DNA of 64,000 bases from a bacterium (lineage in GTDB: Bacteria > Sysuimicrobiota > Sysuimicrobiia > Sysuimicrobiales > Segetimicrobiaceae): contig DATGFS010000022.1 of assembly GCA_035308905.1 (NCBI GenBank), positions 62,001 through 126,000 on the forward strand, given 5' to 3'. Position numbers and translations under genes: made by a program. The number at the start of each line of letters is the position of its first letter. Within the stretch, counting starts at the first letter, position 1. Positions 43,398 through 61,463 of this stretch are shown here, in pieces. The notes beneath the pieces are model-generated. The model was not told the DNA's origin, ran no database searches, and saw only the letters and a list, made by a program, of their open reading frames with translations.

Positions 43398-44803
43398 GCA
43401 GCGTGCCCCGCGCGCAGGACCGGGTCGGCGGCGCCTTCGTCTCGCGGGTCCGCGACATCGTCGGTGACGCGCATCTCACCGCCGATCCCGACCGCCTGGA
43501 CGCGCGGCGCATCGACGGCGTGCGCCCCGGACTCTGGGCCGTGCCCGCGGACGCCGAGCAGATCGCGGCGCTGCTGACCGCCGCCGCGGAGGCCGGCGCC
43601 GGGGTGATCCCGTACGGCGGCGGGGCGCACCAGCACCTCGGCGTTCCGCCGGCGCGGGTCGATCTCGTCGTCGAGACGACCCGCCTCGCCGGCATCACCG
43701 ACTACACGCCGGCCGACTACGTCGTAGCGGTTCGCGCCGGCACGCCGTTTCGAGACGTGCAAACCGCGCTCGCCGCCAACGGACAGTGGCTGCCGCTCGA
43801 TCCACCGGGCGCCGCGGACGCCACGATCGGCGGCCTCGTTGCGGCAAACCGCAACGGTCCCCGCCGCCTCCTGTGGGGCTCGATCCGCGACCTCGTCATC
43901 GGGATCCGCGTCGCGCTGCCGACCGGCGAGGTGATCAAAGCGGGCGGCAAAGTGGTGAAAAACGTCGCCGGCTACGATCTGGCCAAGCTCTTCATCGGCT
44001 CGTTCGGCTCCTGCGGGGTCATCACCGACGTCACCTTCAAGATCCTGCCGCTCCCCGGCGAGGGCGTCACGGTCTTGGTGACGGTCGCGAACGCCGCGGC
44101 CGCGCACGCGCTCACCACCGCCGTGATGCGGTCGTATCTACTCCCGTCCGCGCTCGAGGCGGCGAGTCCCGACGCGCTGGCGATGCTGGCGCGGAGGGCC
44201 GGCCTGTCCCTGCCGGCGGGGACGGGCGCCTCCGGGACGGGCCGATGGGGCGTGCTACTCCTGGCCGAGGGCCTCGAGGAGAGCCGGACGCGTCACGTCG
44301 AGGAGATGCGGACGCTGACCGCCTCCGCCGGCGGTGCGGGCGCCGCGCTCGAGGTATACTCGGGGGCGCCCCACGACGCGCTGTGGCGCGCGGTGGCCGA
44401 GTTCCCGTCGCCGGCGTCTCACCCGGGGGGCGTCGTCTTCCGCGTCGGCACGCCGATCGCGCGGTGGCTCGACGCCGCCCAGGCCGTCCAGGCGGCGGCG
44501 GGCAACTCTCCGGCGGTCCTCGCCCACGCGGGTGTTGGATTGACCTACGTTGCGACCGCGCCGGGGGAGGCCGCCGCGCTCGCGGACGCGCTCGCGCGCG
44601 CGGCGGTCGCCGGACCCGCGTCCGCGGATCCGCCCGGCGGACTCGGCGGATATGCCGTCGTCGAGAGCGCGCCCACCCCGCTCAAAGCGAGTCTGCCGGT
44701 GTGGGGGCAGGCGCCTCCGGCCGTCGAGTTGATGCGCCGCCTGCGCGCGCAGTACGATCCAAAGGGCATCATGGTGCCGGGCCGGTTGGGATGGCTCTCG
44801 TAG
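43394..44803 (+). CDS. glcE: Second FAD-binding subunit, GlcE-like
   Basis: A 469-residue FAD_binding_4 protein starting at GTG 43394, overlapping the glcF stop. It has VIPYGGGAHQHLGVPPARVD, then LPLDPPGAADATIGGLVAANRNGP and AGGKVVKNVAGYDLAKLFIGSFG, closely matching GlcE. It is about 100 residues longer than the usual GlcE. Here the order is D-F-E rather than the E. coli D-E-F. It overlaps the start of the MFS gene by 13 bases. Confidence 0.88.
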   Translation: MSSVPRAQDRVGGAFVSRVRDIVGDAHLTADPDRLDARRIDGVRPGLWAVPADAEQIAALLTAAAEAGAGVIPYGGGAHQHLGVPPARVDLVVETTRLAGITDYTPADYVVAVRAGTPFRDVQTALAANGQWLPLDPPGAADATIGGLVAANRNGPRRLLWGSIRDLVIGIRVALPTGEVIKAGGKVVKNVAGYDLAKLFIGSFGSCGVITDVTFKILPLPGEGVTVLVTVANAAAAHALTTAVMRSYLLPSALEAASPDALAMLARRAGLSLPAGTGASGTGRWGVLLLAEGLEESRTRHVEEMRTLTASAGGAGAALEVYSGAPHDALWRAVAEFPSPASHPGGVVFRVGTPIARWLDAAQAVQAAAGNSPAVLAHAGVGLTYVATAPGEAAALADALARAAVAGPASADPPGGLGGYAVVESAPTPLKASLPVWGQAPPAVELMRRLRAQYDPKGIMVPGRLGWLS

Positions 44804-46401
44804 CCGCCGGCGGCCGCGGCGCCGCGGCCGCCGCGCCGGTGTCCGCCCCGTCGCCGCCCACATCGCGGCGCGCCATCATCACGATCGCGGCGATGCTCGG
44901 CATGTTTCTCGCCGCGATGGACTCCACCGCGGTCGGCACGGCGATGCCGACCATCGTCGGCGCGTTCGGCGGCCTGGCGCTGTATTCGTGGGTATTCGCC
45001 GCGTACCAGATCGCGTTTGTCGTGACGACGCCGATCTTCGGCCGTCTCGCCGACGTCCACGGCCGGAAGCGCATCTACCTGACCGGCATCCTCTGGTTCG
45101 TCGCGGCGTCTGCGCTGTGCGGCTTCTCGCGCTCGATGGATCAACTCGTGCTCTTCCGGCTCCTGCAGGGCATCGGCGGCGGGGCGGTGCTGCCGATCGC
45201 CATGACGATCATCGCGGATCTGTTTCCAGTGCAGCAGCGGCTGCGGCTGCAGGGCTTGTTCAGCGGCGTGTGGGGCTTCGCGGCGATCATCGGTCCGCTG
45301 GTCGGCGGGTTCCTCGCCGATCACGGCGTGTGGCGCTGGATCTTTTTCCTCAACATTCCGGCGGGGCTGATCGCCACGCTCATCCTGACGTTCGCGTTCA
45401 CCGAATCGAAGGCCAAAGGCCGCGGCACGATCGACTTTGCCGGCATCACCCTGCTCTCGACGGCGACGGTGGCCCTGCTGCTGCTCATGTACTGGGGCGG
45501 CCACGCGTTTCCGTGGCTGTCCGCGCCGGCCGCGGGCCTGGCCGCGCTCGTCGTGATCCTCACGCTGTTCTTCCTGCACGTCGAGACGCACACGGCCGAA
45601 CCATTCATGCCGTTCAGCCTGTTCACGAACCGGATCATCACCGTGTGCTGCATCGGCGGCTTTGTCATCGGGATCAGCATCTTCGGCATGACGGCGTACG
45701 TGCCGCTGTTCATGCAGGGCGTGCTGGGATCGAGCGCCACGACCGCCGGGGAAGCGTTGATGCCGTACATGGTGATGTGGACGGTGGCCAGCATCGCGGG
45801 GGGCCGCCTCGCGCTGCGGTGGGGCTACCGTCCCCTGATGATGACCGGGATGACGCTGCTGGCGACGTCGCTGGCCCTGCTGACGCTGCTCACGGCCCGC
45901 ACCCCGGCGGGGATCGTCTTCTTCGATATGTTCGTCCTTGGATGCGGGATGGGACTCGCGGCGACGCTGTTCATGGTGGCGATGCAGAACGCGGTACCGC
46001 GTCCGCTGCGCGGTGTCGTCACGGCGATCAACATCTTCGTGCGGAACCTCGGCAGCGTGATCGGTGTGAGCGCGCAGGGCGCGGTCCTCGTCGGCATCCT
46101 GGACGCGCGCCTCGCGCACCTGCCGCGGGACGTCCGGCTGGCGATGCCCCTGGACGTCGATCCGCGGGCGCTGCTCGATGCCGCGGGACAGGCCCGGGTC
46201 GGACCCCAGGCACATGAGGCCATCCGGCAGGCGCTCGCCCACGGCATTCACGGCGGCTTCGTGCTCGCGTTCTCACTTGTGACGATCGGCCTCGCGGCCG
46301 TTGTGTTCTATATGCCGTCGGGCAGCGTCATGGACCACACGGCGGACGACAACTTGCACATGTCCCAGCCGGTCGCAGCCGGTGGGGGGAACAACGGGTG
46401 A
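44791..46401 (+). CDS. MFS transporter, DHA2 (14-TMS drug/proton antiporter) family
   Basis: A 536-residue membrane protein with about 14 hydrophobic segments. DHA2 landmarks are FLAAMDSTAVGTAMPTI near the N-terminus, GRLADVHGRKRIYLTG in the 2-3 loop, FRLLQGIGGGAVLPIAMTII and VAMQNAVPRPLRGVVTAIN. It is an antiporter-type exporter, possibly of drugs or metabolites. Overlap with the GlcE-like gene suggests co-transcription; the link in function is not obvious, perhaps export of an acid. Confidence 0.9.
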   Translation: MALVAAGGRGAAAAAPVSAPSPPTSRRAIITIAAMLGMFLAAMDSTAVGTAMPTIVGAFGGLALYSWVFAAYQIAFVVTTPIFGRLADVHGRKRIYLTGILWFVAASALCGFSRSMDQLVLFRLLQGIGGGAVLPIAMTIIADLFPVQQRLRLQGLFSGVWGFAAIIGPLVGGFLADHGVWRWIFFLNIPAGLIATLILTFAFTESKAKGRGTIDFAGITLLSTATVALLLLMYWGGHAFPWLSAPAAGLAALVVILTLFFLHVETHTAEPFMPFSLFTNRIITVCCIGGFVIGISIFGMTAYVPLFMQGVLGSSATTAGEALMPYMVMWTVASIAGGRLALRWGYRPLMMTGMTLLATSLALLTLLTARTPAGIVFFDMFVLGCGMGLAATLFMVAMQNAVPRPLRGVVTAINIFVRNLGSVIGVSAQGAVLVGILDARLAHLPRDVRLAMPLDVDPRALLDAAGQARVGPQAHEAIRQALAHGIHGGFVLAFSLVTIGLAAVVFYMPSGSVMDHTADDNLHMSQPVAAGGGNNG

Positions 46402-46431
46402 GGCGCGCGACGCTTCCACCCTGACGCACCC

Positions 46432-48567
46432 ATGCACCGGCTCACGCTCTCCCTCGCCCTGCACAACCACCAGCCCGTCGGCAACTTCGACCACGTCTTC
46501 GCCGACGCGACCGAACGGTCGTATGCGCCGATGATCGCGGCGCTCGAACGGCACCCCGCGATCCGCGTCGCCCTGCACTATTCCGGTCCACTGCTCGACT
46601 GGTTCGGCGCGCACCGGCCGGACCTGATCACGCGTCTGCGGGCGCTCGTGGGGCGCGGACAGATCGAGTTGCTCACCGGCGCGTACTACGAGGCGATCCT
46701 CCCGATCGTGCCGGACGCGGACAAGCGGGGGCAGATCCTCAAGATGACCCGCGCCATCAGGACCGAGTTCGGCTACGCGGCCGACGGCCTCTGGCTCGCG
46801 GAGCGCGTATGGGAACCGCACCTTGCGCGTCCCCTCGGCGAGGCCGGGATCGCGTACACGATCGTGGACGACACGCACTTCCACGCGGTCGGCCTGGAAG
46901 ACAAGCAGCTCCTCGGCTATTACGTCACGGAGGAAGAAGGCGTCCCCGTCGCGCTGTTTCCGAGCCTCCGGCGCCTGAGGTACCTCATCCCCTGGGTCTC
47001 GCCGGAGGAGGTCATCGACTACCTGCGCACACTCGCCGATACCGACGTCCGCCCGGAGGGCCGGGCGGAGCCGCTCGACCTCGCCCTCATGGGCGACGAC
47101 GGCGAGAAGTTCGGGATGTGGCCGACGACGTACGCGCACTGCTGGGAGCGGGGCTGGGTCGACCGTTTCTTCGAGGCGCTCGAGACGACCCGCTGGATCG
47201 ACCTCGTGCCCCCCGGCGACTACCGGCGCACCCACGACCCGGCCGGCGCGATCTACCTGCCGACGGCCACCTACGATGAGATGGCGGAGTGGGCGCTGCC
47301 GCCAACGCGCGCCGAGGCGCGGGCCAGCCTGCGCCACGACCTCGAGACCGGCGGCCGGGGCGATCTCGCGAGCCTCGTGCGCGGCGGGTTCTGGCGGCAC
47401 TTCCTCGTCCGGTATCCCGAGGCCAACACGCTGCACCATCTCGCGCTGCGCGCGGGCCGCAAGGTGCACGCGATGCCCCCGGGTCCCGAACGCGAGCGGG
47501 CGCTCGACGAGCTGTGGAGCGGCGAGTGCAACTGCACCTACTGGCACGGCGTCTTCGGGGGCATCTACCTGCCGCACATCCGGGGCGCGGCGTTCGAGCA
47601 TCTCATCGCCGCGGAGGCGGAGGCCGACCGGGCGCAGCACCCACGGCCGTACGCCGAGGCGTCGGCCGGCGATCTCAACGGGGACGGCCAGCCGGAACTC
47701 TATCTCGCCACCGGGCTCGACGTCTGCACCGTCGATCCGGCCCGGGGCGGCAGCATCGTGGAATGGGACGACCGATCGCGGAAACGGCACCTCGGCAACG
47801 TGCTCACGCGGCGGGCGGAAGCGTACCACGCCCGCGTGCGCCACGAGGCGCCCCCGCTCGAAGGCGCGGTCTCGATTCACGAGGCCGGCGACCGCCCTAA
47901 GGAGCCCGGCCTCGATCGCCTGCTCGTCTACGACCGCGTCCGCCGGACGACGCTGCGGACGTGGCTGTGGCCGGTGGAGGTGACTCGGGACGAAGTGTGG
48001 CGCGACGCCGCGGAGGACCTCGGCGGATTCGGCACCGCGCCGTACGCATGGCGGCTCGAGGAAACTCCCGAGGGGGCCACGGCCGTGCTGACGCGGCGCG
48101 CCCAAGTGGGCCAAGGGCACGCCACCCTCGAGCGCCGGATCGCCGTCGACGCGCGCACGCGCGGACTCACCCACGCGGCGCGCCTCGTCTGGGAAGGCCC
48201 CGGCGTGCTGCGCGCCGTCCTCGCCGAACAGTGGAGCCTCGGCCTCTTCGGCGGGCCCGAGCAGGTGTGGGCGGGCGCCGGCGGCGACTCCCGCGTCTCG
48301 TTGTGGGAGCCCGCCAACCTGCCGCGCGCCGCGGTGGTGCGCGCCGGCGAAACCTACTCCGGGCTGACGCTCGCGTTCACGCCGGAGCGCGCCGCGGACG
48401 TGTGGACGCTGCCGGTGTTCACGATCTCGAACTCCGAGTCGGGTTTCGAACGCAACCAGCAGGGCGCGATGCTCGTGTTGCGGTGGGAAATCGCGGTGCC
48501 CGCCGGAGCGGCATGGGAGCAGACGACCCGCGCCGGGGTCGAGGAGGCCTTCCATAAAGAATCGTGA
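46432..48567 (+). CDS. GH57 alpha-amylase / 4-alpha-glucanotransferase
   Basis: A 711-residue GH57 enzyme, ATG 46432. His11 and His13 are in LHNHQPVGNFD, the nucleophile Glu124 is in WLAERVWEP and the acid/base Asp is in LMGDDGEKFGMW (Asp222-Asp223). The equivalents in Thermococcus litoralis 4-alpha-glucanotransferase are Glu123 and Asp214. The C-terminal part (about 300-700) has the DUF1925/DUF1926 beta domains. It cleaves or rearranges alpha-1,4-glucans and has no signal peptide, so it acts on cytosolic glycogen. It precedes the trehalose/glycogen cluster that runs on the other strand. Confidence 0.92.
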   Translation: MHRLTLSLALHNHQPVGNFDHVFADATERSYAPMIAALERHPAIRVALHYSGPLLDWFGAHRPDLITRLRALVGRGQIELLTGAYYEAILPIVPDADKRGQILKMTRAIRTEFGYAADGLWLAERVWEPHLARPLGEAGIAYTIVDDTHFHAVGLEDKQLLGYYVTEEEGVPVALFPSLRRLRYLIPWVSPEEVIDYLRTLADTDVRPEGRAEPLDLALMGDDGEKFGMWPTTYAHCWERGWVDRFFEALETTRWIDLVPPGDYRRTHDPAGAIYLPTATYDEMAEWALPPTRAEARASLRHDLETGGRGDLASLVRGGFWRHFLVRYPEANTLHHLALRAGRKVHAMPPGPERERALDELWSGECNCTYWHGVFGGIYLPHIRGAAFEHLIAAEAEADRAQHPRPYAEASAGDLNGDGQPELYLATGLDVCTVDPARGGSIVEWDDRSRKRHLGNVLTRRAEAYHARVRHEAPPLEGAVSIHEAGDRPKEPGLDRLLVYDRVRRTTLRTWLWPVEVTRDEVWRDAAEDLGGFGTAPYAWRLEETPEGATAVLTRRAQVGQGHATLERRIAVDARTRGLTHAARLVWEGPGVLRAVLAEQWSLGLFGGPEQVWAGAGGDSRVSLWEPANLPRAAVVRAGETYSGLTLAFTPERAADVWTLPVFTISNSESGFERNQQGAMLVLRWEIAVPAGAAWEQTTRAGVEEAFHKES

Positions 48568-49914: not shown

Positions 49915-51818
49915 CTAGGACGGCTCGCCGGCAAAACCCTCGCCCGCGGCAAAGAGGACGAAGGACCACGGCGCGAGGGCGAGGCGCACCGTCCCGCCGG
50001 ACTCGATCTCTGCCGGCGCGGCCCGCCCCGGGCCGGCCCAGCGGGCGTCCGCGGAGTCGAGAAGCAGTTTCCACCGGCCGGGCGGGAGGGGAACCTGGAC
50101 GCCGGCCGGGGACGGCGAGAAATTGAACACCGCGACGACGGCGCCGTCTCCCCGCCAGCGGCGCGCCACCATGACGCGCGCGTCGTCCTCCGGCGGCCTG
50201 CCGCCCTCCGCACGGGACGACCGTCCGATGACGCGAACGTCCATGGGCTCCTTGCTGAGGTTCGCGAGGGCGGGAACGGTCTTGCGCAGCCGGATGAGCG
50301 TGGTGTAGAGCTCGAGGAGGGCGTGATGTCGCGGCTCGCGCGCGAGCCCGCGCGCAAGCCGCGACCGCTGAAACGTCTCCGGCGACTGTGGATCCGGCGG
50401 CTCGCTCTCCGGATACTCCGCGCGCCGCCCGCGGCGCACGGCCGCGGCGAGCGCCGGGTCACCGTGATCCGTGAAGTAGAGGAACGACGCCGTCTCCCCG
50501 TACTCCTCGCCCATGAACAGCAGCGGCACGAACGGCGCCAGCAGCACGACGCCCGCGGCGAGCTTCAGCGCCTCGAACCCGACGAGGTGGGTGAGCCGCT
50601 CGCCGAGCGCGCGGTTGCCGACTTGGTCGTGGTTTTGCGCGCAGACGACAAAGCGGGGGGCCGCCACATCGCGCGACGGCGCGCCGTGGCGCCGCCGCCG
50701 GAACGGCGAGTACCGGCCGGAGACGACGAATCCCTCGGTCCATGCGAGCGCGAGATCGCCGATCCCGCGGAAGTCCTCGTAGTACCGGAGCCGCTCGCCG
50801 GTGAGCAGAGTATGGAGCGCGTGGTGGAAGTCGTCGCTCCAGGCGGCGTCGAGCCCGTAGCCGCCGCGGTCGATCGGGCGCGTGAGCCGCGGGTCGTTCA
50901 GGTTGCTCTCGGCGATCATGCAGACCCGGCGGCCGAGCGCGCGGCCGCGCTCGCGGACCGCGGTGCCCAGCTCCTCGAGGATGTGCCGAGCGGATTCATC
51001 GAAGATCGCGTGCACCGCGTCCAGTCGCAGCCCGTCGAGATGAAACTCCGCGATCCACCGGCACGCGTTGTCGATGACGAACCGCCGCACCTCGTCGCTG
51101 TCCGGCCCGTCGTAATTGATCGCGTCACCCCACGGCGTGCGATAGCGGTCCGTGAAGTAGGGTCCGTAGGCCGCGAGATAGTTGCCTTCGGGACCGAGGT
51201 GGTTGTAGACGACGTCGAGGATGACCGCGATTCCCCGGCGGTGGCACGCGTCCACAAGCCGCTTCAGCCCGTCGGGCCCGCCGTAGGCGGTGTGCACCGC
51301 GTACGGGTAGGCTCCGTCGTAGCCCCAGTTGCGCGTGCCCGGAAAGTGCGCGACCGGCATCAATTCGATCGCCGTCACGCCGAGCGCGGCCAGCGCGTCG
51401 AGCTCACCGACCACGCCGCCGAACGTGCCGTCCGGTGAAAACGTGCCGACGTGCAGCTCGTAGATGATGTGGCCGGCGAGCGCGAGCCCGCGCCAGCCCG
51501 CGTCCTCCCACGTGAACGCCGGATCGACGACCTGCGACGGCCCGTGCACGCCGTCAGGCTGCAGCCGCGAGGCAGGGTCGGGGTACTCGGCGCCGCAGTC
51601 CAGAACGTAGCGGTAGCGCGCGCCGGCGTCGACGCCCGGGACGTCGGCCTCGTGGTAGCCGCGCTCGCGCCGGTCGAGCGGGATCACGCGGTCCGCCGGA
51701 CTCAACAGGTGCACCTGCACGGCACGGGCGTTGGGCGCCCACACGCGAAAACGGCAGCCGCCCCCGGGGAGCAGGACCGCGCCGGCCGGCTCCGGGCCCG
51801 GCGCGGACTCGCCGCCCG

Positions 51819-51822
<4 letters not shown>
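49915..51822 (-). CDS. treZ: Malto-oligosyltrehalose trehalohydrolase TreZ
   Basis: A 635-residue GH13 enzyme that releases trehalose from malto-oligosyltrehalose. An N-terminal CBM48-like domain (about 20-110) is followed by the barrel: YELHVGTFSPDGTFGG, DVVYNHLGPEGNYL, the nucleophile Asp268 in LRLDAVHAIFDESA, the acid/base Glu305 in IAESNLND and the NHDQVGN loop near residue 397. These words are diagnostic of TreZ. The start is uncertain: the frame has no ATG or GTG near the right place, and a CTG at 51822 overlaps the upstream TGA, preceded by GGGAGG at 3-base spacing. The TreY partner that makes its substrate is not in this window. Confidence 0.9.
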
Positions 51823-55294
<3,472 letters not shown>

Positions 55295-55298
<4 letters not shown>

Positions 55299-57265
55299 GG
55301 GCTCCGCTCCACCCGGAAGATGTGCCCCGGCTGCTCGGCCGGATGCAGCGAGACGTAGTTGCGGCCCCCGCGCCAGGTGTACCGGGTGCCGCTCAGCAGG
55401 TCCGTCACGGCGAAGGGCTCGTCCGGGCCGAGCCCGAGCGCCGGCAGCGAAAGCGCGGTCCAGCCCGCCTGCGCGACGTGCGGGTCGAGGTTCACGACGA
55501 CGAGCACCGGCGGGCCGCCGTCCGGACTCGTCTTGCTGTAACAGATGAGCTGATCGTTGTCGATTCCGTGAAACACCAGGGTGTCGTCCCGCTGGAGCGC
55601 CGTGTACTCCCGGCGGACTGCGTTCACGCTCGCGATCAGGCCGCGCAGACTTTCCGGCCGGCCGACGTCCCAGTGTTTGATCTCGTACTTCTCCGCGTTG
55701 AGATACTCCTCGCTCGCCGGCGGCGGACTCCCCGGGGCGGCCGACTGGTGCTCGATGAGTTCGTACGCCGGCCCGTAGATGCCGTAGTTCGCCCCCAGCG
55801 TCGCCGCGAGCACGAGACGCACGGCGAACGCCGGCCGGCCGCCGTCCTGCAGGTACTTGTGCAGAATATCCGGCGTGTTCGGCCAGAGATTGGGCCTGAA
55901 AAATTCACTCACCGGCGGGCGCGTGAGGTCGGTGAAGTACTCGATCAACTCGGCCTTCGTGTTGCGCCACGTAAAGTAGGTGTACGACTGCGTGAATCCC
56001 AGCTTGGCCAGCCGGTACATCACCTTGGGACGCGTGAACGCCTCCGCGAGAAAGATGACGTCGGGGTCGGTGCCGTGGATCTCGTCGATCAGCCATTCCC
56101 AGAACGGGAACGGCTTCGTGTGCGGGTTGTCCACCCGGAAGATGCGCACCCCCTCGCCGATCCAGAAGCGCACGACGCCGAGCAGCTCGTTCCACAGACC
56201 TCGCCAGTCGGACGAATCGAAATCGAACGGGTAGATGTCCTGGTACTTCTTGGGCGGGTTTTCCGCGTACTGGATCGTGGCGTCGGGCCGCCGCCGGAAC
56301 CACTCCGGGTGCTCGCGCACGTACGGATGATCAGGCGCGCACTGGTAGGCGAGGTCGAGCGCGATCTCCAGGCCGCAGCCCCGGGCGCGGATGATGAGGC
56401 GGCGGAAATCCTCGAACGTCCCGAGCTCGGGATGAATGGCGGTGTGGCCGCCCTCCGCGGCGCCGATGGCCCAGGGGCTTCCCGGATCGCCCGCGCCCGC
56501 CGCCTCGGCGTTGTTGCGCCCCTTGCGGTGGTCGCGGCCGATCGGATGGATCGGCGGCAGGTAGAGGATGTCAAACCCCATGCTCGCGACATACGGCAGC
56601 CGCGCCTCGCAGTCCCTGAACGTCGCGTGCCGCCCCGGTTCGAGCGACGTCGAACGGGGAAACATCTCGTACCACGCGCCGAACCGCGCGCGCGCGCGGT
56701 CGACGACGACCGGCAGCTCGGGCGCGTAGCGCGCCGCCCCCTCACGCGGCGGGTAGCCCCGCATCGCGGCGGCCAGTTCGGCCGAGAGGGCAATCCGCAC
56801 CGCGTCACCGTTCCCCGCGTCGAGATGGTCCGCCCACGCTGACAGCTGTTCGGCATCCGGTCCTCGGGCCCCGAACACGGCGGCCCGGACGAGCTCGGCG
56901 CCGATCCGGAGATCCACCCCCACATCCTGTCCCGCGTCCACCCGCTTCGCGAGATCCCGCGCCCACGTCGCGAAATGGTCGATCCACACTTCCACCGTGT
57001 AGCGGTACCGGCCGGTCTGCGCCGCGACAAACGTGCCGCGCCAGCGGTCGTTGTCCAGCGCCTGGAGCGGCGCCTCGCTCCACCCCGCGGAGGCGGGGTC
57101 GCCCTCCCAACGGTACCGCAGCACGCCCGCCAGCAGATCGTGGCCGTCCGCGAACGCGTCGCATTCGACGACGACCGTCTCGCCGGCGGTGCGCTTGACG
57201 GGGAACCGTCCGCCGTCGATCTGAGGCGTGACGGCCTCTATGGCGACTCGGGACTTCGCCTCCAT
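55295..57265 (-). CDS. glgE: Alpha-1,4-glucan:maltose-1-phosphate maltosyltransferase GlgE
   Basis: A 656-residue GH13_3 enzyme that transfers maltosyl from maltose-1-phosphate to glucan. ATG 57265 follows AGGTGA; a GTG ten codons upstream is less likely. Residues 1-190 are the N- and S-type domains (DUF3416). The barrel has YLPPIHPIGRDHRKGRNN, nucleophile Asp379 in RIFRVDNPHTKP, the acid/base Glu408 in FLAEAFTRPKVMY and the YFTWRNTK segment, matching the GlgE of Streptomyces and mycobacteria. Downstream overlap with treS-mak marks the GlgE pathway. Maltose-1-phosphate is toxic when GlgE is lost in mycobacteria. Confidence 0.95.
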
Positions 57266-57359
57266 GGGTGTCACCTGCGTGGGCGTAGTCGGCACCGCGT
57301 CAGTGTCACGGTTGCCGGCCGCGGACGTTATGACTCACGCCGTAGGCCGTCGGCCGGCG

Positions 57360-59468
57360 TCAGCGCGGCGCGATGATGTCCTCCAACCGCACCCCGTTGC
57401 CGCGCGTCGTCGCCACGGTGATGTGGTCGCCGCCGTGCAGGACGGTATCGCCGCGCGGCACGAGCATCCGGGTGCCGCGGCGCAGCGTCACGACGAGGCT
57501 GTCGGGCGACACGGCGAGCGCGCTCAGCGGCCGCCCCGCGACCGCCGACTCGGCCGGGATCGCGAAATGGACGAGCCGCGTGCCGAGATAGACGCGCTCC
57601 GCCTCCGTCCCCCGGTCCACCTCGTCGAGGATCTCCGGAAACCGCGGCGGATACAAATCGTACAGATACCGGTACATCGCGTCGATCATGAAGTCTGTTT
57701 CGCCGCCCGCCATCCAGGTCCGCTGCAGATGGTCCAGGCTCAAGAACACGTTGCGGCAGTGCTCCCGCGCCTCGAGCAGGACGCGCCGCCAGCGCGCGGC
57801 GTTGTGGAAGTCCTCGTCGAGCGCGCGGTAGGCGTCGAGCATCTGCTCGGCGCCGCGCCCCGCCTTGTCGCGAAAGTCGGTCGCGTAGTCCAGCTGCCGG
57901 AACGCCTCGCTGGGATCGTAATCGTGGCGCTCCTCGCGGAGGCGTTCGAGCGCGAACCGGAGATAGGCGATGCGGGTATCGAGCAGACCCTCCGGCAGGC
58001 GGCCGAGGCCCACCAGCAACCGCGGATCGAGGCGGTCCTCGTTCGCCGGGTACCGCTCCGGATAGAACTGCAGCATCATCATCAGCGCGTCCGCGAGCAC
58101 GAGGCCGTAGAGGTACGGCCGCTTGTTGAGCGCTTCGCTCGGCTGCCAGCCCCAGTTGTCGGCCTGCTTCAAGAGGCGATAGCCGACCGCGATCCGCTTC
58201 TCGATCGGGAAGCGGTACAGCTGGTAGCCCTCGTCGCACAGCACCGAGGCGTGCACGCCCACCGGCGCGAGCAGGCCGAACGCCCGCAGCATCCACCCGA
58301 ACAGGCCGGCCACGTACTTGCCGGGTTCCCAGTAGATGAAGGGGTGCGCGCGGAAGATCGCCGGCACCGCGTCGATCCCGCCGTACTCCCCGGCGTAGAG
58401 CGGCGGATAGTGCCCGTCCGACCGGAGCAGCACGCGCGTCTCCGGCGCCCATCCCATCCCCTGGTGCTCCACGCGCGCCTCCGGCCCCTGGGGCACCGTC
58501 TCCAGATATTCGTCCGGCGTCGAGAACTTCACCGTCACGTCCTGCGATCCGAGCACCTGCCGCCACGCGGCCTGCAGCACGTCGAGCGCCACGTCGCCGA
58601 AGTCCATCAGCTCGAGATCCTGGATGTAGAGAATCAGGCCGCCGTCGGGGGCGGCCGCGAGCGCCTCGCGGAGCGTCGTCGCGTATTCCTCGACGCCGCG
58701 CGCGCGGTCGATCGGAAAATCGAGGTAGCGGTGCTCCTTGTACTCTGTATCGAAGATGTAGTACGCCCCCATCATGTAGCCCTGCGACCGCACTTCCTGC
58801 GGATACATCCGGGTGACGGGGCGCCAGATCTCCTGGGATACCCGGAAATGCCGAGGCAGCGCGACGAGCCGCCGGCCGATCAGAAACGGCCTGTGCACGT
58901 AGTCGTGCGACGGGTTCGACGCGGTGTAGACGCCCTTGCGGTCGCTCAGGTGCGGGTGGACGATCGCGTCGATGCCGGCGTCCTCGAGCGCAGGCGCAAA
59001 CCGCGGATGCACCGAGCATTCGGTAAAGAAGAAAACGCGGTGCCGCGGCTTCGGCGCGCCGACGACGTCGTGGAGGATCTCCTGGTTGAGCCGCAGCTCC
59101 TCCACCATCTCGCCGGGTTCGAGCAGCGCGGCGTGGGTGTGATGCGCCGTCGTGTACAGCGGGTAGATCGTGTGGTCACGGTACGCGCGGCGCAGTTCCT
59201 CGAAGGTGCGCGGCAGAATCGTGCGGATCTGAAAGAGCAGGTCGTTCGAGATGTCGACCGTGACGCGGACGCCCATCGCGCTCGCGAACGCGACGAGATC
59301 GCGGTAGATGTTCCGGCCCTCTTTGGCCCGCCGGCGCAGATAGTTCTCCGGCGGCACCGCCTGCGCGATGCGCATGTCCGGAACGGCGCTCTGGAGGTGC
59401 GCCGGCAGGTCCCAAAGCGGCTCGTGGGCATGAAAAGCCAGGATCACGTGAACCGTCTTGGGCATCAC
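57360..59468 (-). CDS. GH57 glycoside hydrolase fused to a C-terminal RCK_C (TrkA-C) domain
   Basis: A 702-residue protein. Residues 1-400 are a GH57 barrel: His13/His15 in FHAHEPLW, candidate nucleophile Glu150 in FFTECSVHPRF and candidate acid/base Asp284 in YIQDLELMDFG. Residues about 400-625 are a helical domain (ADNWGWQPSEALNKRPYLYG). The last about 70 residues (632-698) look like RCK_C/TrkA-C: FAIPAESAVAGRPLSALAVS, VVTLRRGTRMLVPRGDTVL, HGGDHITVAT, a domain normally found on potassium channels and transporters, where it binds ligands such as c-di-AMP. I know of no described GH57-RCK_C enzyme. It lies 94 bases upstream of glgE. GTG 59468 or ATG 59465 may start it; AAGG is close by. A TATGAT box at 59474-59479 could give a near-leaderless mRNA. 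Confidence 0.85.
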   Translation of the reverse strand: MMPKTVHVILAFHAHEPLWDLPAHLQSAVPDMRIAQAVPPENYLRRRAKEGRNIYRDLVAFASAMGVRVTVDISNDLLFQIRTILPRTFEELRRAYRDHTIYPLYTTAHHTHAALLEPGEMVEELRLNQEILHDVVGAPKPRHRVFFFTECSVHPRFAPALEDAGIDAIVHPHLSDRKGVYTASNPSHDYVHRPFLIGRRLVALPRHFRVSQEIWRPVTRMYPQEVRSQGYMMGAYYIFDTEYKEHRYLDFPIDRARGVEEYATTLREALAAAPDGGLILYIQDLELMDFGDVALDVLQAAWRQVLGSQDVTVKFSTPDEYLETVPQGPEARVEHQGMGWAPETRVLLRSDGHYPPLYAGEYGGIDAVPAIFRAHPFIYWEPGKYVAGLFGWMLRAFGLLAPVGVHASVLCDEGYQLYRFPIEKRIAVGYRLLKQADNWGWQPSEALNKRPYLYGLVLADALMMMLQFYPERYPANEDRLDPRLLVGLGRLPEGLLDTRIAYLRFALERLREERHDYDPSEAFRQLDYATDFRDKAGRGAEQMLDAYRALDEDFHNAARWRRVLLEAREHCRNVFLSLDHLQRTWMAGGETDFMIDAMYRYLYDLYPPRFPEILDEVDRGTEAERVYLGTRLVHFAIPAESAVAGRPLSALAVSPDSLVVTLRRGTRMLVPRGDTVLHGGDHITVATTRGNGVRLEDIIAPR

Positions 59469-59807: not shown

Positions 59808-60785
59808 TTATGTCCGGACGTCCGCCGCGTCGTCGATCCACCCGCGCGTGAGAAAGAGCCAAAACGCGAGGCCCGCGTACGGACCGTAGAGGCGAAACCG
59901 CCGTGTGATGGTCCGGTCGGTCACCGGCCGGCGGCGGCCGGACAGGCGCGCAAACGCCGGGCGCGTCCACGAATCGAACACGAGCCGCGAGTACCGGCCC
60001 AACAGCATCATGATGTGCGCGGCGGCGTACGGTCCGACGCCGGGAAGATCCAAGAGGCGCTCGGCCATTTCTTCGTCCGATACGGCCCCCGGCGTGCCGG
60101 GGCGGCGGTCGAGCAGTTCGAGATCGACCCCGCCGCGGACGACGCCGCGCGCCAGCGCCCGGAGATACGGTCCCCGGTATCCGGCGCGGACGACGTTCTT
60201 GTAGAAGGACGGACGGGCGTCCGCCATCGCCTCCGGCCCCGGAAAGGCCCGGCCGATCCACCCGCGGGCGGGCGCGCCCGGCGCGGGCTCGCCGAGATGC
60301 TCGACGAGGCCCGTGATCATCCGGCGCGTCAGCGCCCACGAGCAGTTCGTCGTGCAGATCGTCTTGACCACGTCTTCGAACACGGTCGGACTGCGGATCA
60401 GACGTCCCGCGCCCGCGCACGCCCAGGCGAGATCCGCGTCTTCGGCGGCAAGCGCGTAGAACTCGGCGAGCCGCTCGTCCAGCCGGAGCACGTGGCGTAC
60501 CGCCGCGGCGGCCCGCTGGACCACGCGCGGCCCGGGCGCCGGCCCGAGGATCCGCACGACGCCGAATCCCGCGCGTCCCTCGCCGATTTGAATCAGCCGG
60601 GGACGTCCGCCGTTAATGGGCAGCGTGAGCTCGAGCATCCGCGCCGCCGCGTCGAGACGCATCGGCGGCAGTTCCGTGAGCCCGTGGGACATGCACGTGC
60701 GCCACAAATGCACCGGCTCGCCGCCGGGACCGGCGAGCCGAAATTCGAAAGCCGCGGCCGGAGCACTGCCGGCGTCAGCCGTCAC
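59808..60785 (-). CDS. HhH-GPD DNA glycosylase (AlkA/OGG-like)
   Basis: A 325-residue base-excision DNA glycosylase. GTG 60785 is chosen; the frame extends upstream but that part is low-complexity and overlaps the next gene. The N-terminal beta domain (FRLAGPGGEPVHLWRTC) is followed by the helical core with ICTTNCSWALTRRM and the helix-hairpin-helix LLDLPGVGPYAAAHIMML, and the catalytic Asp (about 271) in RLVFDSW. There is no Lys in the hairpin position, so it is probably a monofunctional alkyl-base glycosylase. No Fe-S Cys set is seen. Confidence 0.85.
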   Translation of the reverse strand: MTADAGSAPAAAFEFRLAGPGGEPVHLWRTCMSHGLTELPPMRLDAAARMLELTLPINGGRPRLIQIGEGRAGFGVVRILGPAPGPRVVQRAAAAVRHVLRLDERLAEFYALAAEDADLAWACAGAGRLIRSPTVFEDVVKTICTTNCSWALTRRMITGLVEHLGEPAPGAPARGWIGRAFPGPEAMADARPSFYKNVVRAGYRGPYLRALARGVVRGGVDLELLDRRPGTPGAVSDEEMAERLLDLPGVGPYAAAHIMMLLGRYSRLVFDSWTRPAFARLSGRRRPVTDRTITRRFRLYGPYAGLAFWLFLTRGWIDDAADVRT

Positions 60786-60828
60786 GGCGCCCCGAGGAAC
60801 TCGCCCGCAGCGCGGGGATCCGCCGCGG

Positions 60829-61047
60829 TTACCCCCTCCGCCTGAGCGCGCCCAGTGCCAAAAGCCCGAGGAACGTCGCGGCCAGCGCACGCCGGCTGGA
60901 CGGCGCGGCGGTGGCCACGGCCGACGGAAGCTCGGTGCCGCGCGGCGGTGCCTCGGCGAGGCGCAGCCGTCCATCCTGCTCGGCCTCCCGCCGGTAGTTC
61001 GCGAGCCGCTCGTTCGCGAGCCATTCGTACATCCTGTCATTCCACAT
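60829..61047 (-). CDS. Small single-span membrane protein
   Basis: A 72-residue protein starting at ATG 61047, 17 bases after the CBS gene. The N-terminal MWNDRMYEWLANERLANYRR half is amphipathic and charged, and the end is one hydrophobic helix (RRALAATFLGLLALGALRRR). Function unknown. It lies between the CBS and glycosylase genes in one transcription unit. Confidence 0.7.
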   Translation of the reverse strand: MWNDRMYEWLANERLANYRREAEQDGRLRLAEAPPRGTELPSAVATAAPSSRRALAATFLGLLALGALRRRG

Positions 61048-61064: not shown

Positions 61065-61463
61065 CTACGGCAGAACGGCGGTCCAGGGCAGCAGGCCGAC
61101 AAGACGTCCGCCGTCCACGACCGGAAGCGCCTCGTGGCGTCCCGTGCGCATCAGGACGGCCGCATCTTCGAGCGATGCGTCCGCCGCGATCGCCGGGACC
61201 GGCTCGATGACGCGCGCCACGGTCAGACCGTCGAGCACGTTGCGAAGCTCGTACACGTCGAGGGTCGTGACGTCCGACGGCGTGAGCCGCAGGAGCCCGG
61301 TTTCCCGGACGACTCCGAGGAGTCGATCGCCTTCACAGACCGGCAGCGCCGCCGTGTCGTGCTCGCGAAGCAGCCTGAGGGCCGTCGCGACGGTGGTGCG
61401 CGGTGTGATCACCGGCGAAAAGATCATGCTGTTCCGGACGCTGGCCGTGCGGACGTCGATCAT
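61065..61463 (-). CDS. CBS-domain pair protein
   Basis: A 132-residue protein, ATG 61463 behind AAGGAGGG. It contains two CBS motifs: MIFSPVITPRTTVATALRLL with ALPVCEGDRLLGVV, and VARVIEPVPAIAADASLEDA with ALPVVDGGRLVGLL. Free-standing CBS pairs bind adenosyl ligands (AMP, ATP, SAM) and sense energy state. No other domain is fused. Its presence in front of the glucan cluster on the same strand may be relevant to energy-linked control, but that is inference. Confidence 0.9.
   Translation of the reverse strand: MIDVRTASVRNSMIFSPVITPRTTVATALRLLREHDTAALPVCEGDRLLGVVRETGLLRLTPSDVTTLDVYELRNVLDGLTVARVIEPVPAIAADASLEDAAVLMRTGRHEALPVVDGGRLVGLLPWTAVLP

Follow-up and report, generated by a model that had tools for sequence, protein, structure and literature searches.

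In the window (the whole stretch of 64,000 nucleotides analysed here), a GH57 glycoside hydrolase fused to a C-terminal RCK_C (TrkA_C) domain was encoded in a trehalose/glycogen operon and, judging from gene content and gene order, filled the TreY gap beside TreZ. We somewhat favour the explanation that the GH57 enzyme replaced TreY and that the RCK_C domain serves for control or assembly. The features concerned were as follows.

57360..59468, minus strand: GH57-RCK_C fusion gene, 702 aa, GTG start; the frame is open and kept at full length in four genomes
57615..59468, minus strand: GH57 core (residues 1-618), a candidate TreY-type (maltooligosyltrehalose synthase-like) enzyme; PF03065 and fold match
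Minus strand, core motifs: HAHE; E150, the nucleophile candidate, at 59019-59021; D284/E286, the acid-base candidates, at 58611-58619
57363..57587, minus strand: RCK_C (TrkA_C) domain (residues 628-702); PF02080, model match and dN/dS
55295..57295, minus strand: glgE (maltose-1-phosphate maltosyltransferase), with PF11896 and PF21702, 64 bp downstream of the fusion gene
51819..55298, minus strand: treS-mak (trehalose synthase fused to maltokinase); TIGR02456 at 910 bits and TIGR02457 at 444 bits, both above cut-off
49915..52089, minus strand: treZ (maltooligosyltrehalose trehalohydrolase); TIGR02402 at 716 bits for a cut-off of 538.8
46432..48567, plus strand: second GH57, of the 4-alpha-glucanotransferase/alpha-amylase type, with PF03065, PF09094 and PF09095; adjoins treY in sister genera
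43786..46401, plus strand: MFS transporter frame, with the domain at residues 370-760
61065..61463, minus strand: small two-CBS-domain protein (PF00571)

The initial annotation had placed the gene correctly, and the two domains that it had read from the sequence were confirmed by Pfam profiles and by structure prediction. Both profiles scored above their curated cut-offs: Glyco_hydro_57 (PF03065) matched residues 10-214 (E=3.8e-8, 33.4 bits vs. 21.2) and TrkA_C matched residues 633-691 (E=8.8e-11, 42 bits vs. 27). The full-length AlphaFold model, built with 46 homologues, was confident over residues 1-620 and showed a GH57 fold, while residues 621-702 fell below pLDDT 50 because the tail was present in just two rows of the alignment. 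When modelled apart (5 sequences), the tail reached pLDDT 87.8, adopted the RCK_C fold and matched the RCK_C domain of TM1088B from T. maritima (3jxo; TM 0.71, 1.2 A).

The best solved Foldseek matches of the core were the 4-alpha-glucanotransferase of T. litoralis, which was the nearest, GH57 branching enzymes and amylases (1k1x, 4cmr, 5wu7 and 3p0b; E down to 6e-9, with TM by target of just 0.36-0.53). The core shared with these enzymes the fold, the HxH motif and the candidate catalytic Glu and Asp, but was very remote from them (12-15% identity in structural alignments) and lacked both the branching fingerprint and the AmyA middle and C-terminal domains. When the core profile was run against PDB sequences no GH57 structure came up, and only fold comparison retrieved such structures; 15 of the 46 members of the core family reached the PF03065 model at E 0.001. 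The fusion protein gave no match to TIGR02401, the TreY model; the core is a GH57 member by profile and fold, and not TreY by descent. Four acidic residues, E150, D284, E286 and D289, were invariant in the 46 homologues (their catalytic roles being mapped by motif, not by superposition); two of these, Glu150 and Asp284, had already been put forward as candidates, and their invariance was counted in favour of a TreY-like core. One remote homologue (29%; G279, L027 9825-11642) carried K at the position of D284 and D at that of E286, and is possibly inactive or of a different activity.

That the core might serve the GlgE pathway by branching glycogen, given the branching enzymes among its fold matches and an operon without glgB, is very improbable, and this candidate was rejected: in place of HxHLP and ELF(Y)GHW, the fingerprints of GH57 branching enzymes (PMC11206854), the fusion carried HAHEP and ELMDFG, and the same genome encoded a separate GH57 with a BE_C domain (L002). 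A GH57 of a further uncharacterised type, with DUF3536, was also present in this genome, and was found near the core in G115 and in an Elusimicrobia genome, L035 (L003 1132-3597, L026 13668-16202).

The operon ran on the minus strand in the order GH57-RCK_C, glgE, treS-mak and treZ, which bears out the initial annotation in placing the fusion immediately upstream of glgE and treS-mak. The TIGR02402 match started at residue 112 of the treZ frame, and treZ probably begins further downstream than the first start codon available in this frame. The gene for the two-CBS-domain protein, which may bind an adenine nucleotide, was a conserved neighbour of glgE in TreY and GH57 lineages and lay directly beside glgE in TreY-bearing sisters (L099, L101); as it also adjoined glgE in sisters without the fusion, it was rejected as a sensor-specific partner. 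Between the CBS gene and the fusion, a 410-residue frame (59808-61040) without a Pfam match contained a stretch, LPGVGPYAAAHIMMLLGRY, resembling HhH-GPD DNA glycosylase; this frame was conserved in L028, but in L029 and L030 it was not found in the interval from the CBS gene to the core.

Genes for TreZ are usually accompanied by treY, whose product makes the substrate of TreZ. No TreY above cut-off was detected in the genome of the window, where TIGR02401 gave just weak cross-matches to TreS and TreZ. Among 48 core-carrying genomes, 32 had TreZ and one had TreY. In 386 control genomes, chosen by kinship, the same searches detected 36 with TreZ. Four of the 36 were core-bearing members of the window's family and had no TreY, and TreY was present in 30 of the 32 others. 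Among TreZ-positive genomes, TreY thus accompanied the core in 1/32 and was present without the core in 30/32 (Fisher p=2e-14, kinship ignored, a value that overstates the strength of the association, since the genomes, most of them metagenome assemblies, are related and the counts are not independent). The exceptions were G401 (L050), alone among the genomes seen in combining core, TreZ and TreY, together with a GH57 of about 413 residues, and G090 and G126, which were TreZ-positive with neither TreY nor core. Outside the window's family, the core had TreZ and/or TreT as neighbours, which was likewise counted for the replacement of TreY.

The strongest evidence for the replacement of TreY is the swap within the window's own family, in which G003, G004, G007 and G009 had TreZ and TreY without the core, and G000, G001, G002 and G005 had TreZ and the fusion without TreY. 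In G007 and G009 the order was rsmI, a CGNR gene, the CBS gene, glgE, treS-mak and treZ, with treY beside the 4-alpha-glucanotransferase GH57 and the MFS gene. At three sister loci (L094, L095 and L096) treY separated the MFS gene from the 4-alpha-glucanotransferase, two genes that in the window were just 30 bp apart (46401 to 46432), and in the lineage of the window the fusion was present between the CBS gene and glgE. This looks like the loss of treY and the gain of the GH57 gene within one lineage. Both the exchange among TreZ genomes and the gene order in the same family were counted for replacement of TreY. The earlier label of a glucan enzyme holds as far as family GH57 is concerned and, since the gene replaces treY in the family, can probably be narrowed to the step from glycogen to trehalose. 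The fusion resembles TreY (GH13_26; TIGR02401) in the step inferred for it, in its partnership with TreZ and in the mutually exclusive distribution among genomes, but TreY belongs to GH13 and the fusion to an unrelated catalytic family, with an RCK_C tail in addition. No report of a GH57 maltooligosyltrehalose synthase was found in the open-access papers searched.

An ordinary GH57 4-alpha-glucanotransferase/alpha-amylase whose role is to trim glucan for use by other enzymes, with the lack of TreY either coincidental or made good by an unrecognised enzyme, would agree with the nearest solved fold and with the GlgE-type locus of Pontibacter, whose GH57 was assigned 4-alpha-glucanotransferase activity (PMC11206854). 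We consider this unlikely. The locus already contained such a GH57 (46432-48567), with the AmyA-type domains PF09094 and PF09095 that were absent from the fusion protein; the Pontibacter enzyme, PoGH57, is a 93 kDa protein with other motifs (HGHFY and ETYGHH; PMC11206854); and the mutual exclusion of core and TreY among TreZ genomes would be left unexplained.

A second exchange was seen in core genomes without TreZ, in which a GH57 of about 413 residues was encoded directly upstream of the core (15 of 16 TreZ-less core genomes vs. 1 of 32 TreZ-bearing; p=2e-10). This protein was observed at L026 (7565-8806) and at loci L035, L037-L046, L067, L068 and L079. The states with TreZ and with the 413-residue GH57 alternated along the core tree, so that the core was the constant partner, and TreZ or the 413-residue protein the exchangeable one. 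The partnership with TreZ is therefore not universal, since in Chloroflexota and Elusimicrobia the core occurred without TreZ, beside another GH57, a point counted against the replacement of TreY. The 413-residue protein may be a second, non-homologous trehalohydrolase; from gene content, we infer that maltooligosyltrehalose is the product of the core, from which either TreZ or the 413-residue protein would release trehalose, and the second exchange supports the TreY-like reading of the core. Two further neighbours were recorded: a DUF5752 gene, regularly beside TreT and the pair of core and 413-residue GH57 (L026 10797-11489; also L041, L072, L077 and L079), and a GH13 of about 750 residues with CBM48 and a pullulanase-associated domain (PUD), which many Bacillota encode immediately upstream of the core (e.g. 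L081 3739-5979) and which is a possible debranching partner.

GH57 is a retaining family whose members carry out transglycosylation, which makes a transfer from an alpha-1,4 to an alpha-1,1 link chemically reasonable. With the GH57 enzyme in the place of TreY, the core would probably convert the alpha-1,4 link at the reducing end of a maltooligosaccharide into an alpha,alpha-1,1 link; TreZ, from the same operon, would then release trehalose, and TreS-Mak and GlgE, also from this operon, would return trehalose into glucan. This return route would set the enzyme at the junction of glycogen and trehalose. The RCK_C domain, added in this lineage alone, would probably dimerise the enzyme and make its activity responsive to a ligand.

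The full-length fusion was also encoded in G001, G002 and G005 (92, 93 and 78% identity), so that the set comprised four genomes from two genera of one family, two of the relatives belonging to the same genus and one to the other. The intact fusion in four genomes excludes an assembly join, and a separate gene for the tail, the other possibility raised in the initial annotation, was rejected on the same ground. No match was obtained when the fusion was compared with plasmids and phages, or in a first scan of genome contigs with the single fusion protein. In the genome scan, most of the core was matched at 45 loci, which came from Chloroflexota, Bacillota, Elusimicrobia and Deltaproteobacteria and included L034, the fusion gene of G005 itself. 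More than 40 core homologues from Bacillota, Chloroflexota and other phyla had no such tail, and ended near the end of the core or with at most short unrelated tails. TrkA_C matched just 2 of the 46 aligned members (the window and L034), and the four known fused genes all came from one family, and RCK_C was thus rejected as a general feature of the core family. In the core tree the four fused proteins formed one clade (support 1.0) nested among tail-less proteins, which identifies the tail as a derived addition. For the RCK_C part, dN/dS was 0.06-0.10 among members of the genus and 0.37-0.53 when the genera were compared; this part is under purifying selection within the genus, and evolves more loosely between genera. 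This selection, together with the RCK_C fold, was counted for the tail as a control or assembly module.

RCK_C domains are usually found in potassium transporters; they dimerise, and in several proteins they bind ligands. The tail of the fusion had the same fold and sequence motif as the RCK_C domains of TM1088B, TrkA, CpaA, KtrA and KhtT, but, in contrast to these regulators of K+ transport, it was attached to a soluble sugar enzyme, with neither RCK_N nor a transporter partner. The transcription factor BusR is closer in that its RCK_C likewise lies outside transporters and is used in osmolyte control; however, its output is DNA binding and it is a proven c-di-AMP receptor, which the fusion is not.

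Whether the tail is under ligand control we judge to be about an even question. It may well serve dimerisation or stability only, without a ligand, a role to which we give slightly less than even weight and which is compatible with a TreY-like core. The RCK_C of BusR is dimeric in solution even without ligand (PMC8517857), and the published signature for c-di-AMP binding was absent from the fused proteins; on the other hand, the RCK_C domains whose ligands have been studied are regulatory modules, and the wide occurrence of tail-less homologues indicates that the core does not need the tail.

Sensing of c-di-AMP by the tail, by which an osmotic second messenger would directly control trehalose formation, is in our view distinctly unlikely. 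Trehalose is a compatible solute. The presence in the genome of a diadenylate cyclase of the CdaA type, with a YbbR-like frame after its gene, makes c-di-AMP control possible; besides the fusion, the genome encoded one TrkA-type protein with TrkA_C. The c-di-AMP-bound RCK_C of CpaA (5f29, 4ys2) was a weak relative of the tail, by sequence (E=0.002-0.003) and by fold, the closest relative being the TrkA-type domain of TM1088B. The signature (I/L)(I/L)X2DX1RX5N(I/L)(I/L) (PMC10117811), which may not cover all binders, was absent from all four fused proteins in its strict and relaxed forms, and just two of six RCK_C domains of S. venezuelae bind c-di-AMP (PMC10117811). The interpretation first given to this gene is partly supported: the domains, the position and the lack of a described example stand, and the sensing of a nucleotide or ion is a possible role of the domain. 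As to described examples, no report of the fusion was found in the open-access papers searched on GH57 with TrkA_C or on RCK_C with a glycoside hydrolase.

Direct action of a second messenger on a glycogen enzyme is already known from Streptomyces, where GlgX is regulated by c-di-GMP (PMC9530166); GlgX differs from the fusion in being a GH13 debranching enzyme, in its messenger and in having no RCK_C. A wider proposal is more speculative, and we put it forward as a tentative one: Bacillota and Chloroflexota might widely possess a non-homologous maltooligosyltrehalose synthase of the GH57 type, whose partner is either TreZ or a GH57 protein in the place of TreZ; in the present lineage, the gain of RCK_C might allow the formation of trehalose from glycogen to be switched at the enzyme itself by an osmotic signal, be it an ion or a nucleotide such as c-di-AMP. 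If this is true, many anaerobes would carry out the textbook TreY step with a second enzyme family that has gone unrecognised, the TreZ genes without TreY would be explained, and a sensor domain of K+ transport would act directly on compatible-solute synthesis, coupling ion and osmolyte responses.
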